DNA of 64,000 bases from Salipiger abyssi (lineage in GTDB: Bacteria; Pseudomonadota; Alphaproteobacteria; Rhodobacterales; Rhodobacteraceae): the NCBI RefSeq assembly GCF_001975705.1, contig NZ_CP015093.1:3666501-3730500 (forward strand), read 5' to 3'. The number at the start of each line of letters is the position of its first letter. The first letter of the stretch is position 1. The notes under the pieces are model-generated. The model was not told where the DNA came from. It saw nothing but the letters and a program-made list of their open reading frames with translations, and searched no databases. Positions 13,321 through 17,559 of the stretch are shown one piece after another. The translations under genes were made by a program, and so were the position numbers.

Positions 13321-14217
13321 ATGTCGCAGGATCGGATCGTTCTTATCGCCACGCTGATCGTGGCCGTGACCGGGGTGCTCTGGGGGGTCTACTGGCTGCC
13401 GGTGCGCGCCATGGTGGCGCGTGGCCTGCCCGGCGCCTGGGGCACGGTGCTGGCCACCTCGGTGGCCTGTCTGGCGCTGTCGCCGTTCGTGCTGTGGCGC
13501 TGGCGCGATGTGCTCCGGGCAGGGCCGGTGGCGCTCGGGTCGATTGCGCTCGGAGGCGCGGCCTTCACGCTCTATTCCATTGGGCTGGTCTATGGCCGGG
13601 TGGCGATCATCATCCTGCTCTATTTCCTCACGCCGGTCTGGAGCACGCTGATCGGTCGCTATGTCATGGGCTGGCACACGCCGGCGCTGCGCGTCGTGGC
13701 GATCGGTCTGGGGATTCTCGGCCTCGTGGTGATGCTGAGCGCCGGCGGCGAGGCGCCGCTGCCGCGCGGCGCGGGCGAATGGATGGCGCTGATCGCGGGG
13801 GTGATGTGGGCGCTCGGCACCACCGGCATCCGCGCCAGATCGACGCTGGGGCCGGGACCGGCAACCTGCGTCTTCGCCGCCGGGGCGACGGTGACCGGGC
13901 TGGTGCTGGCGCCGTTCTTCGATCCCTGGCCGGCGGGGCTGTCGCTCTGGGGTGATGCCGGGCTCATCGGGCTGGGGCTGGTGACCGGCATTGTCTGGTG
14001 GGGGCTGTCGCTGGCGATGCTGATGTGGGCGACGCTGCGGCTCGATCCGGCGCGGGTCGGCATCCTGATGCAGACCGAGGTTCTGGTCGGCGCGCTCTCG
14101 GCGGCGCTGCTGGCGGGAGAACACCTGCACCCGCTGGAGATCGCCGGCGGCGCGCTGGTGGTCGCGGCGGGTCTGCTCGAGGTCTGGCCGGTGCGGCGGC
14201 GGGCGCGGGCGCTGTAG
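13321..14217 (+). CDS. EamA/DMT-family transporter
   Basis: A 298-aa membrane protein with about ten hydrophobic segments arranged as two EamA repeats, typical of drug/metabolite exporters (RhaT, YdcZ types). The repeats are divided near residue 150; the first ends around GLVVMLSAGG. Each contains the Gly- and Trp-rich helices of the family. The substrate cannot be told. Its stop lies 26 nt before the -35 of the cysS leader transcript. Confidence 0.85.
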   Translation: MSQDRIVLIATLIVAVTGVLWGVYWLPVRAMVARGLPGAWGTVLATSVACLALSPFVLWRWRDVLRAGPVALGSIALGGAAFTLYSIGLVYGRVAIIILLYFLTPVWSTLIGRYVMGWHTPALRVVAIGLGILGLVVMLSAGGEAPLPRGAGEWMALIAGVMWALGTTGIRARSTLGPGPATCVFAAGATVTGLVLAPFFDPWPAGLSLWGDAGLIGLGLVTGIVWWGLSLAMLMWATLRLDPARVGILMQTEVLVGALSAALLAGEHLHPLEIAGGALVVAAGLLEVWPVRRRARAL

Positions 14218-14243
14218 AGCCGGCCGGCACCGGGGGATACGAC

Positions 14244-14273
14244 TGGACAGGGCGGGCACGATGCCGCTATAGA
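14244..14273 (+). promoter_or_regulatory. Strong sigma70-type promoter of the cysS leader
   Basis: TGGACA (14244-14249), 18-nt spacer, TATAGA (14268-14273). The expected transcription start, 6-7 nt downstream of the -10, falls at 14279-14280, that is, on the A of the leader peptide ATG. This implies a leaderless leader ORF. Confidence 0.7.
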
Positions 14274-14279
14274 GCCGCC

Positions 14280-14327
14280 ATGACCACGCAAGCGACCCTC
14301 ATCCGGATTTGCTGCATTACCTGCTGA
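14280..14327 (+). CDS. Cysteine-rich leader peptide (candidate attenuator peptide for cysS)
   Basis: A 15-aa [18 protein letters not shown], ending in TGA and lying 100 nt upstream of cysteinyl-tRNA synthetase. Three of its last five residues are cysteine (codons TGC TGC ATT ACC TGC), the arrangement expected if ribosome stalling at Cys codons reports charged tRNA-Cys. The predicted transcription start coincides with its ATG. Two mutually close hairpins follow (14332-14349; 14352-14403). No other reason is apparent for a Cys-rich microORF at this place. Function is inference; the ORF, promoter and hairpins are visible directly. Confidence 0.72.
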
Positions 14328-14331
14328 CATC

Positions 14332-14403
14332 TGTCGGGTCCTCCCGACAAACGGCGGGCCGGTCTTCTATTCCCATCCAGAACCGAAGTTGCTACTCCCG
14401 CCG
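14332..14403 (+). promoter_or_regulatory. Structured cysS leader (two hairpins after the leader ORF)
   Basis: Hairpin 1: TGTCGGG-TCCT-CCCGACA (14332-14349), starting 5 nt after the leader stop. Hairpin 2: CGGCGGG (14352-14358) with CCCGCCG (14397-14403), with inner pairs CGGT/ACCG (14360-14363 with 14382-14385). It ends 12 nt before the cysS AAGGAG. There is no U-run, so control could be of ribosome access or Rho-dependent rather than intrinsic termination. Confidence 0.5.
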
Positions 14404-14427
14404 CGACCCTGTGCCAAGGAGCGCGCT

Positions 14428-15789
14428 ATGGACATCTGGCTGACCAATTCCCGCACCCGCAAGAAGGAGCGCTTCGAGCCCATCGATGCGGAGAACGTGC
14501 GGATCTATGTCTGCGGCCCCACAGTCTATGACCGGGCGCATCTGGGCAATGCCCGGCCCGCCATCGTCTTCGACGTGCTGTTCCGGCTGATGCGGCAGGT
14601 CTACGGGCCCGATCACGTCACCTATGTGCGCAACTTCACCGATGTGGACGACAAGATCAACGCGCGGGCCGAGGCCTCGGGGCGCAGCATCGGCGAGATC
14701 ACCGCCGAGACCACGCAATGGTATCTCGACGATATGGCCGCCGTGGGGGTGATGCAGCCCACCCATATGCCGCGCGCCACCGAATATATCTCTCAGATGA
14801 TCGCGATGATCTCGGATCTGATCGAGCGCGGCCATGCCTATGAGGCCGAGGGCCATGTGCTCTTTGCGGTGGAGAGCTACACGCAATACGGCGCGCTGTC
14901 GGGCCGTTCGGTCGACGATATGATCGCCGGCGCAAGGGTCGAGGTGGCGCCCTACAAGCGCAACCCGATGGATTTCGTGCTGTGGAAACCGTCTTCGCCG
15001 GAGCTGCCGGGCTGGGACAGCCCCTGGGGCCGCGGGCGTCCGGGCTGGCATATCGAGTGCTCGGCGATGAGCTACGAGCTGCTGGGGGCGAGTTTCGACA
15101 TTCATGGCGGCGGCAACGATCTGATGTTCCCGCATCACGAGAACGAGATCGCCCAGAGCTGCTGCGCCCATCCCGAGGGCGGCTTTGCCAGGGTCTGGCT
15201 GCACAATGAGATGTTGCAGGTCGAGGGCAAGAAGATGTCCAAATCCCTGGGCAATTTCTTCACCGTGCACGATCTGCTGGAACAGGGCGTGCCGGGTGAG
15301 GTGATCCGTTTCGTGATGCTCTCGACCCATTATCGCCGGCCGATGGACTGGACGGCGGAAAAGGCGGCGCAGGCAGAGGCGGTGCTGCGCAAATGGCGCG
15401 GGCTGGTGGACGGTGTCGAGGCTGGGCCGGTGCCCGAGGCGGTGCTGGCGGCGCTGGCCGACGATCTCAACACCGCCGGCGCGATTGCCGAGCTGCACCG
15501 GCTGGCGGGTGCCGGTGAGGCCCCGGCCCTGAAGGCCGGGGCGGGTCTTCTGGGGCTGCTGACGCCGGAGCTGGGCGCCTGGGCCGAGGCCTCGGTGGAT
15601 CTCTCGGAGCTGGCGGCGCGGCTGGCGGAGCTGCGTGCGCAGGCGATGCAGAGCAAGGATTTCTCCGAGGTGGATCGGATGAAGACGGCGCTGATCGAAG
15701 CGGGCGTCGAGGTGCGTATGTCGAAAGCCGGGGTGGAGCTGCTGCCCGGTGCCGGGTTTGACGCGGCGAAGCTGGAGGGCCTGTCGTGA
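14428..15789 (+). CDS. cysS: Cysteinyl-tRNA synthetase
   Basis: A 453-aa class I aminoacyl-tRNA synthetase that charges tRNA-Cys. Seen are the start [14 protein letters not shown], the zinc-binding [17 protein letters not shown] with the HIGH-type motif HLGN, the second zinc region with [18 protein letters not shown], and the KMSKS loop (KKMSKSLGN). AAGGAG sits 6 nt before the ATG. An upstream cysteine-rich leader peptide and hairpins suggest control by cysteine availability. Downstream is a double palindrome that could act as a terminator. Confidence 0.97.
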
Positions 15790-15795
15790 GGCCGG

Positions 15796-15841
15796 GCAAC
15801 TCTTTTCGAAAAGAGTTGCAAATTCCTCTCAAGGAATTTGC
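15796..15841. repeat. Tandem double palindrome, copy 1 (possible terminator of cysS)
   Basis: First palindrome GCAACTCTTTTC/GAAAAGAGTTGC (15796-15819, perfect). Second palindrome arms GCAAATTCCT and AGGAATTTGC with loop CTCA (15818-15841). The two share the GC at the junction. It starts 6 nt after the cysS stop and is closely similar to the element at 34183-34226. Confidence 0.8.
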
Positions 15842-15936: not shown

Positions 15937-17559
15937 ATGGCTAAGGAGCGCCTCTATCTCTACGACACCACCCTGCGCGACGGGCAGCAGACCCAGGGCG
16001 TGCAGTTCTCCACCGGGGAGAAGCTGCGGATCGCCGAGGCGCTTGATGCGCTCGGGGTCGATTACATCGAGGGCGGCTGGCCCGGCGCCAACCCCACCGA
16101 CAGCGCGTTTTTCGACACGGTGGAGGCGACGCGCGCCACCATGACCGCCTTTGGCATGACCAAGCGGGCCGGGCGCTCGGCAGAAAATGACGACGTGCTG
16201 GCCGCCGTGCTGAATGCCGGGACTCCGGCGGTCTGTCTGGTGGGCAAGACCCATGATTACCACGTCACCGCGGCGCTGGGGATCACGCTTGAAGAGAATA
16301 TCGAGAATATCCGCGCCTCGCTTGCTCATATCGTGGCGCAGGGCCGCGAGGCGCTGTTCGATGCGGAGCATTTTTTCGACGGCTGGAAGGCCAACGCGTC
16401 TTATGCGCTGGACTGCCTGAAAGCCGCCCTTGAGGCCGGTGCGCGCTGGATCGTGCTTTGCGACACCAATGGTGGCACGTTGCCGCATGAGATCCATGAC
16501 ATCGTGAAAGAGGTGATCGCCGGCGGCATCCCCGGTGCGCGGCTGGGCATCCACACCCATAACGACACCGAGAACGCGGTTGCGGGGTCGCTCGCGGCGG
16601 TGGATGCCGGCGTGCGGCAGGTGCAGGGTACGCTGAACGGGCTGGGCGAGCGCTGCGGCAATGCCAATCTCACCTCGCTGATCCCCACGCTGCTGCTCAA
16701 GGAGCCCTATGCCAGCGCCTATGAGACCGGCATCGCGCATGCGGCGCTGGAGGGGCTGACCCAGACCTCGCGCATGCTCGACGAGGTGCTGAACCGCGTG
16801 CCGATGCGGCAGGCGCCCTATGTCGGCTCCTCCGCCTTTGCCCACAAGGCGGGGCTGCATGCCAGCGCCATCCTCAAGGATCCGACGACCTACGAGCATA
16901 TCGACCCGGGCGCGGTGGGCAATCGCCGCGTCATCCCGATGTCGAACCAGGCCGGCCAGTCGAACCTGCGCCGCCGGCTCGCCGAGGCGGGGCTCGAGGT
17001 CGAAAAGGGCGATCCGGCGCTGGCCCGCATCCTCGAAACCATCAAGGCGCGCGAGGCCGAGGGCTATACCTACGACACCGCGCAGGCGAGTTTCGAGATC
17101 CTCGCGCGCGAGGCGCTGGGGCGGCTGCCGGACTTCTTCGAGGTCAAGCGCTACCGGGTCACCATCGAGCGGCGCAAGAACAAGTACGACAAGATGGTCT
17201 CGCTCTCCGAGGCCGTGGTCGTGGTGAAGGTCGACGGGGTGAAGAAGCTCTCGGTCTCCGACAGTCTCGACACCGACGGGCACGACCGGGGGCCGGTCAA
17301 CGCGCTCTCCAAGGCGCTGGCCAAGGATCTCGGCCCCTATCAGGCGGTGATCGACGACATGCGGCTGGTGGATTTCAAGGTGCGCATCACCCAGGGCGGC
17401 ACCGAGGCGGTCACCCGCGTGATCATCGACAGCCAGGACGGCGCGGGCCGGCGCTGGCAGACCGTGGGGGTGAGCGCGAACATAGTGGATGCGTCTTTCG
17501 AGGCGCTGCTCGACGCGGTGCGCTGGAAGCTGATCCGCGATTGCGGAGAGACCGCGTGA
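15937..17559 (+). CDS. cimA: (R)-citramalate synthase
   Basis: A 540-aa enzyme of the LeuA family that condenses pyruvate with acetyl-CoA to citramalate, a threonine-independent route to 2-oxobutanoate and isoleucine. The HMGL-like TIM barrel starts with YDTTLRDGQQTQG (residues 8-20) and holds the metal ligands in GIHTHNDTENAV. The C-terminal regulatory LeuA-dimer domain ends in VRWKLIRD. Length and the QTQGVQFS segment fit TIGR00977-type citramalate synthase better than isopropylmalate or homocitrate synthase. The start was chosen by the AAGGAGG 7 nt upstream. The next gene overlaps its stop by 1 nt. Confidence 0.9.
   Translation: MAKERLYLYDTTLRDGQQTQGVQFSTGEKLRIAEALDALGVDYIEGGWPGANPTDSAFFDTVEATRATMTAFGMTKRAGRSAENDDVLAAVLNAGTPAVCLVGKTHDYHVTAALGITLEENIENIRASLAHIVAQGREALFDAEHFFDGWKANASYALDCLKAALEAGARWIVLCDTNGGTLPHEIHDIVKEVIAGGIPGARLGIHTHNDTENAVAGSLAAVDAGVRQVQGTLNGLGERCGNANLTSLIPTLLLKEPYASAYETGIAHAALEGLTQTSRMLDEVLNRVPMRQAPYVGSSAFAHKAGLHASAILKDPTTYEHIDPGAVGNRRVIPMSNQAGQSNLRRRLAEAGLEVEKGDPALARILETIKAREAEGYTYDTAQASFEILAREALGRLPDFFEVKRYRVTIERRKNKYDKMVSLSEAVVVVKVDGVKKLSVSDSLDTDGHDRGPVNALSKALAKDLGPYQAVIDDMRLVDFKVRITQGGTEAVTRVIIDSQDGAGRRWQTVGVSANIVDASFEALLDAVRWKLIRDCGETA

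Follow-up and report, generated by a model that had tools for sequence, protein, structure and literature searches.

The closest described relative of the element analyzed here is uORFC-8-2 (Brewer et al. 2021, RNA Biol., PMC8632094), a motif with 145 examples that lies upstream of cysS and, according to the article's text, occurs in Rhodobacterales only.

Leaderless poly-Cys upstream ORFs (uORFs) are also found in mycobacteria, where they precede cysA2, nirA and Rv0485 (Shell 2015, PMC4633059; PMC9031893, PMC13236596). As these sources present them in their accessible text, they resemble the cysS element in being leaderless and cysteine-responsive, in having Cys codons near the 3' end and in preceding sulfur genes. 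They differ in that the genes are other than cysS, the control is summarized as translational, and a 5'-end helix goes unmentioned in that text.

Within the Alphaproteobacteria, the best match in design is trpL/rnTrpL of Sinorhizobium meliloti, for which the accessible text reports transcription from the AUG of a 14-aa leader peptide and ribosome-mediated transcription attenuation, but with Trp codons and trpE as the gene (PMC7298713, PMC10117765). A pattern search for trpL, intended for a comparison of 5'-end helices, found no trpL in four genomes. Leaderless messages of Bradyrhizobium japonicum are reported to have an extended -10 sequence, TGnTA, upstream (PMC4842269), and more than 60% of published alphaproteobacterial promoters, as given in the text of PMC8407463, have no T at -7.

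We analyzed a window of 64,000 nucleotides from Salipiger abyssi (NZ_CP015093.1, positions 3,666,501 to 3,730,500). A first-pass annotation of this sequence had proposed a leaderless, Cys-rich leader peptide that controls cysS, and knew of no description of one in Rhodobacteraceae. The element fits a motif that has already been described in Rhodobacterales, uORFC-8-2, in its position upstream of cysS, AUG-started uORF, tandem Cys codons, two stems and proposed attenuation (PMC8632094), and cysteine attenuation itself is not new. The published motif ends in a run of U. Several points differ from the text of that article. Tandem Cys codons are usually at positions 14 and 15 in uORFC-8-2, whereas they are at 11 and 12 in the window and begin at residues 8-10 in 68 of the 84 uORFs that have them; this is compatible with membership, since the article says "usually". 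Its text describes a third helix as rare and without covariation, whereas here a helix at the 5' end is present in 100 of 110 predicted folds and covaries; from the text alone the two may or may not be the same helix. That text does not use the term leaderless, and the element found here also occurs in a rhizobial order.

In the open-access literature, with uORFC-8-2 represented by its text, we found no description of a conserved leaderless spacing or of a 5'-end helix as a covarying part. The same search found none of a GCGGG:CCCGC stem that covaries and excludes a terminator arm, of a second promoter, or of rhizobial members. The word cysS is also absent from the main texts of two rhizobial start-site papers and of a ribosome-profiling paper. 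With the present analysis, what stood as a catalogue entry becomes a switch whose helices have names and can be tested.

Organization of the cysS leader

A gene for an EamA-type transporter (Pfam EamA) ends at 14217 and is followed, after a 210-bp gap, by cysS (Pfam tRNA-synt_1e). The features of this gap are listed in Table 1. Every element that the first-pass annotation had placed around the start of the leader is present at its position: the promoter with its expected start on the ATG, the 15-codon ORF with three Cys among its final five residues, and cysS with its own AAGGAG. The predicted +1 is the A of the uORF ATG, and with this start the first T of the -10 box is at -12, i.e., 12 nt 5' of the ATG.

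Table 1. Features of the cysS leader in the window
Feature	Position	Strand	Basis
Distal promoter: TGGACA 14244-14249, N18, TATAGA 14268-14273	14244..14273	+	sequence; logo of 143 uORFs
Cys uORF, putatively leaderless, 15 codons, ATG 14280, stop TGA 14325-14327	14280..14327	+	
uORF Cys codons	14310-14312, 14313-14315, 14322-14324	+	3 Cys among final 5 residues
Left arm of P0, GACC, starting at G of AUG (message nt 3-6)	14282..14285	+	window fold; covariation among relatives
Left arm of P2, CCTGCTG (spans final Cys codon, enters stop codon)	14320..14326	+	fold; weak covariation, z 3.5
Lineage-specific hairpin TGTCGGG 14332-14338 / CCCGACA 14343-14349, inserted inside P2	14332..14349	+	
Shared arm CGGCGGG: partner of P2 left arm (terminator form) or of 14397-14403 (P3 form)	14352..14358	+	
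P0 right arm GGTC, base of predicted three-way junction	14361..14364	+	covariation, window fold
U-rich tract TTCTATT immediately 3' of P0	14365..14371	+	T-richness in relatives
Putative proximal cysS promoter: TTCCCA 14370-14375, 17-nt spacer, TACTCC 14393-14398 after TTGC (extended -10)	14370..14398	+	
Right arm of P3, CCCGCCG; would replace P2 left arm as partner of 14352-14358	14397..14403	+	z 8.4, collapsed 4.3; fold
cysS Shine-Dalgarno AAGGAG	14416..14421	+	sequence
cysS, cysteinyl-tRNA synthetase, 453 aa, presumed controlled gene	14428..15789	+	Pfam PF01406 E 3.5e-115

Conservation of the Cys uORF

We collected 190 regions upstream of cysS, 177 from the same family and 13 from other families of the class; three of them are shorter than 300 nt (92, 185 and 259). 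The 177 family loci are among the best matches of 286 genomes and form a non-random sample. By a strict rule, i.e., an ATG-started ORF of 8-20 codons with at least two Cys in its last nine residues that ends 70-190 nt 5' of cysS, 143 of these 177 best-match loci carry the uORF. The same rule is passed by three of 177 reverse complements and by 1-5 of 177 sequences in each of ten Markov shuffles, and a chance ORF is ruled out by this comparison. A looser count finds the uORF in 158 of 190 regions; for comparison, 23 of 190 reverse strands and 233 of 1900 base-shuffled sequences qualify. None of the 13 cysS loci from other families passes the strict two-Cys rule.

Among the 34 family loci outside the strict set, 14 have a related uORF (11 with a single Cys) and 20 have none by the rules used. 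Loci without a Cys uORF, among them L234, L239, L250, L251 and the 20 of the family, could be used to map gain and loss on a tree. The first-pass annotation had named disappearance of the ORF from close relatives as evidence against its reading, and this did not occur: all 20 loci of the genus keep the uORF and pass the strict rule, and all 20 genomes match the element model. The genome of the window itself has a single strong match, before cysS (E 5.5e-13), and no strong match before any other gene (next best E 0.69). No Rfam 15 family matches the region, either at the gathering score or at E 5, and a known RNA family was dismissed on that ground.

The Cys codons are conserved features of the peptide. 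The tandem in the window (TGC TGC, 14310-14315) has its counterpart in 84 of 110 genera. The last residue is Cys in 56 of 110 peptides and otherwise R, G, A, T or others, and the number of Cys per uORF, where at least two were required, ranges from 2 to 4.

A separate feature of these peptides is their isoleucine content. Isoleucine is their commonest residue (29%, against 22% for cysteine, in 110 genera), and uORFs of the rhizobial order look Ile-rich as well. Cys sensing does not account for this richness.

Evidence for a leaderless start

A logo anchored on the ATG of the 143 uORFs has T at -35 in 81%, T at -12 in 59%, A at -11 in 65% and C or T at -1 in 98% of the sequences. SD-like 4-mers precede 17 of the 143 uORFs, against 96 of 143 cysS starts. 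Because the promoter logo is locked to the ATG and few uORFs have such 4-mers, the uORF message is predicted to be leaderless, with its 5' end at the A of the AUG. A consensus scan of 14180-14480 called no promoter at threshold; the scan demands a T at the last -10 position, which is absent here. The weak -7 position of the uORF promoters agrees with what the text of PMC8407463 gives for alphaproteobacterial promoters.

Covarying helices

Helices were evaluated by the best ungapped pairing of two segments, comparing each segment's own partner with partners shuffled among 110 genera, for 28 segment pairs. The tests omit 14 of the 143 strict uORFs, which have no anchored GCGGR...YCCGC, and same-genus rows other than that of the window, leaving 110 rows, of which 101 without an insertion were used for the stop-codon segment. 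These scores ignore relatedness except in two additional tests. In the first, arms were collapsed to one row per distinct sequence. In the second, limiting shared descent, each genus was paired with its most similar partner differing in both arms, with similarity measured on the leader itself.

A helix that involves the predicted 5' end of the message, missed by the first-pass annotation, is conserved in these tests. This helix, P0, joins the first 14 nt of the message to the 13 nt after GCGGG and has the highest score of the 28 pairs (13.71 vs 10.69 shuffled, z 14.2). After collapse on the left or the right arm it still has z 11.2 and 10.4, and in the nearest-neighbor test the own pairing exceeded the cross pairing in 45 cases vs 5 (5 ties, p 2e-9). 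Its arms change together: AAG AGC occurs with GCTCTTT in 9 of 10 cases, AAC CGT and AAC CGG mostly with CCGGTT, and AAC GGN mostly with CCGTT. Pairing begins with the G of AUG in 53 of the 100 leaders that could be scored, and further 5' in 22. P0 is predicted in the folds of 100 of 110 leaders, and the complete three-helix junction in 65 of 110. The P0 of the window (GACC:GGTC) has just 4 bp.

The second outstanding pair is P3, formed by the flanks of GCGGG and CCCGC (z 8.4), for which the collapsed test gives z 4.3 and the nearest-neighbor test 30 vs 9 (16 ties). P2, which pairs the stop-codon segment with GCGGG, covaries weakly (z 3.5, 101 rows); in the window it is CCTGCTG:CGGCGGG and contains the inserted hairpin. 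Pairing of message nt 9-22 to the P0 right segment scored z 3.9 and segment pair A-K z 3.0; all other pairs had z of at most 2.3.

These comparisons point to GCGGG as an arm common to P2 and P3. In separate predicted folds of the window, 14352-14358 pairs with either 14320-14326 or 14397-14403, so that the two helices would be mutually exclusive and share one arm. The 3' half of the leader folds alone as P3 in 109 of 110 sequences; full-length folds have P3 in 79 and P2 in 20 of 110. The 93-nt leader of the window has a predicted fold of -33.6 kcal/mol (z -3.4; none of 200 shuffles as good), and the 57-nt second stem (P3) alone is unremarkable there (z -1.6; 13 of 200 shuffles as good).

The first-pass annotation had described two close hairpins before cysS and proposed an alignment of Rhodobacteraceae loci. 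Both stems are present and the second, P3, covaries in that comparison, in which the Cys codons are also conserved; the first is a lineage insertion missing from 114 of 129 relatives, where the gap between stop codon and GCGGG is just 6-12 nt, and as a conserved part it is ruled out. Folding predicts two further stems in some sequences, one inside P3 and one, P1, that includes the Cys codons. Neither covaries (M-Y z -0.1, H-K z -1.8, R-K z 0.1), and both were set aside.

RNAalifold on a MAFFT alignment (A1, 79 of 97 sequences) yielded three pairs only, which we ascribe to a misaligned 5' arm and to register shifts of P0. The covariance model built from this alignment, R1, is therefore mainly a sequence model.

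Members outside the family

Among named loci, 28 have the uORF: 19 are Rhodobacteraceae-type records (e.g., Roseovarius, Sulfitobacter, Marivita), which we take to belong to Rhodobacterales, two are alphaproteobacterial MAGs, and seven, with a Cys uORF before cysS, are from Rhizobium, Ensifer, Mesorhizobium, Devosia and Bradyrhizobium. The P0 test omits seven of the 28 without GCGGR (six of them rhizobial); in the other 21, none of which overlaps the first set, P0 has z 5.8 and no shuffle of 1000 reached its score.

We then took 90 of the 96 cysS places listed from a sample of the order to which one Rhizobium leguminosarum genome belongs. The rule here asked for one or more Cys within the ten final residues of the uORF and for TTGA[CT] 28-40 nt 5' of the ATG. 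It was passed by 62 of 90 loci, against 0 of 90 on the reverse strand and 0.5 of 90 in shuffles; among the 62, L431 at least does not resemble the others. Across 54 distinct 5' ends, P0 scored 15.42 vs 12.58 (z 8.2), and a control segment scored -0.1. A single Cys is present in 27 of the 62 uORFs, with sequences such as IICG or ICGIII. Occurrence of this design before cysS in a rhizobial order suggests a range wider than that reported.

Other details were seen in these loci, e.g., L338, L392 and L395. The uORF stop is TAG in 50 of 62, often within GCTAGC...GCTGGC, and the predicted P0 extends to 10-12 pairs if G-U is included.

Model R1 gave strong matches in 4 of 289 genomes of the class, all of the window's own family, and weak matches (E 3.9e-4 to 0.01) in 25 others. 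One weak match, in a genome of another family, lies 86 nt 5' of cysS, holds the uORF MSNAHTIFICPIICR and is probably real. The remaining weak matches, for which the cysS positions are listed in part, are taken as chance.

A proposed model of attenuation and its alternatives

The main reading is that the element is a ribosome-mediated cysteine attenuator of cysS, to which we assign a probability of about two in three. The comparative support for it is good. In its favor, the codons fit the gene, i.e., Cys codons precede the gene for cysteinyl-tRNA synthetase. The first-pass proposal that a Cys leader peptide controls cysS is also backed by the conserved uORF and Cys codons, the promoter-ATG spacing and the two covarying or conserved RNA helices.

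From these comparisons we infer the following start site, stalling, termination, direction of control and default state. RNA polymerase would start at the A of the leader AUG, and a 70S ribosome would load once the 5' end emerges. With ample Cys-tRNA, the ribosome would reach the UGA and depart, the stop region would pair with GCGGG (P2) and the freed 5' end with the bases right after GCGGG (P0), such that the start region would form the base of the terminator through P0. The P2/P0 junction and the U-rich tract would then end transcription. With scarce Cys-tRNA, a ribosome waiting on the Cys codons would cover the left arm of P2 and transcription would continue; GCGGG could then pair with the later CCCGC (P3), holding the read-through form. 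If no ribosome is present, the off form would be the default. A second promoter just downstream would supply basal cysS.

The part played by P3 in this switch is a guess. Its right arm is made after the U tract, and P3 alone therefore cannot prevent termination there; P0 and P3 might also coexist as a pseudoknot around a stalled ribosome. Several observations speak against an attenuator: the short P0 of the window, the imperfect U tract with no terminator called by the scan, weak covariation of P2, the absence of P1, the predominance of P3 over P2 in full-length folds, the lack of such a uORF in 20 of the 177 loci of the family, the fall of P3 to z 4.3 when arms are collapsed and its unremarkable fold in the window.

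A more specific version seems to us evenly poised between right and wrong. Here the start codon would be part of one terminator arm, and loading of the first ribosome and closure of the terminator base would be mutually exclusive, so that each message would be read once by a ribosome racing RNA polymerase. The element would then represent an old alphaproteobacterial form of attenuator, common to Rhodobacterales and the rhizobial order, adjoining a second promoter not subject to it. Should the start codon indeed lie within the terminator, leaderless initiation would gain a clear regulatory purpose, which bears on why Alphaproteobacteria retain leaderless leader peptides. The element could also serve as a cysteine-sensing reporter.

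How transcription would end is the point on which the first alternative departs. The first-pass annotation saw no U-run and considered a Rho-dependent or translational output. Its statement on the U-run was slightly too strong, as TTCTATT adjoins the predicted junction, but the tract is imperfect and the consensus scan of 14180-14480 called no terminator at threshold; the 3' U-run of uORFC-8-2 may correspond to this tract, and relatives are U-rich there on average. With the same sensor, the pyrimidine-rich stretch after GCGGG might instead be a Rho loading site gated by P3 and the ribosome. This C/U-rich stretch is present, the covarying P3 would enclose it and thereby acquire a job, and the text of a report on S. 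meliloti (PMC12218461) gives an example of a uORF attenuator that probably depends on Rho. Yet the eight bases after P0 contain on average 4.21 T vs 1.58 in the background (in the 100 of 110 leaders whose base helix could be scored), as intrinsic termination asks, and the pairing of the 5' end in P0 would be left without a clear use. We regard a Rho-dependent output as unlikely, although worth keeping in view.

A different question is raised by the block downstream of the tract, which looks like a second promoter, in the window about 22 nt 5' of cysS, that would bypass the attenuator. A loose box, TTYC-N15-19-TTGNTA, occurs in 103 of the 143 strict-uORF loci vs 2.46 expected and in 19 of the other 34 family loci vs 0.40 expected (14 of these 34 have a weaker uORF). 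Of the 20 uORF-less loci of the family, 8 retain the strict box, TTTYCA-N13-TTGNYA, whereas shuffles predict none; 28 of the 143 uORF loci have it as well. Its spacing is fixed at 17 nt, and the -10 is TAAGCC in most loci, with no T at -7. Could this block be a promoter and nothing else, with P3 simply its GC-rich stretch and P0/P2 alone making up the switch? Persistence of the box where the uORF is missing and its fixed spacing favor this, but the GCGGG and CCCGC flanks covary in all three tests given above, and conservation of the CGC part is lower among the 10 loci that have a box and no uORF, as RNA pairing predicts. We consider this improbable; in the main reading the block would act as a promoter alongside the attenuator.

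In translational attenuation, alternative folds would hide or free the Shine-Dalgarno sequence of cysS, as is reported for the mycobacterial Cys uORFs. The closest functional precedent, the leaderless Cys uORFs of Mycobacterium smegmatis, is summarized as translational in the accessible text of PMC9031893 and PMC13236596. Where the left arm of P3 is absent, the Shine-Dalgarno sequence is predicted to pair most often with CCCGC (summed pair probability 163 of about 363); adding the left arm increases access by over 0.1 in 29 of 110 loci and lowers it in 15. These pairing results slightly reduced our confidence in the attenuator mechanism. However, the Shine-Dalgarno segment does not covary with the upstream segments tested (C-D z 1.0, Gl-D 0.8, R-D -1.1, K-D -2.1, A-D -2.3) and mean predicted access is nearly equal, 0.41 vs 0.45 (0.34 vs 0.35 in the window). 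Shine-Dalgarno masking, one form of the translational output raised in the first-pass annotation, thus finds little support and is quite improbable.

Finally, action in trans of the peptide or of a short terminated leader RNA, with control of cysS secondary, has a precedent in the same class in peTrpL/rnTrpL of S. meliloti, as far as the text of those reports goes, but is very improbable here; against it speak the variation of the peptide in its last residue and Cys number, the single Cys in 27 of 62 rhizobial-order uORFs and the one strong element match, before cysS, in the genome of the window.

Sequences downstream of cysS

A perfect palindrome, CAACTCTTTTCGAAAAGAGTTG, lies at 15797-15818 just 3' of cysS and occurs at five places in the genome. 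It is followed by a second inverted repeat, AAATTCCT...AGGAATTT. The next gene, at 15937-17556, encodes HMGL-like, homocitrate-synthase-type and LeuA dimerisation domains, a domain set like that of citramalate or isopropylmalate synthases.
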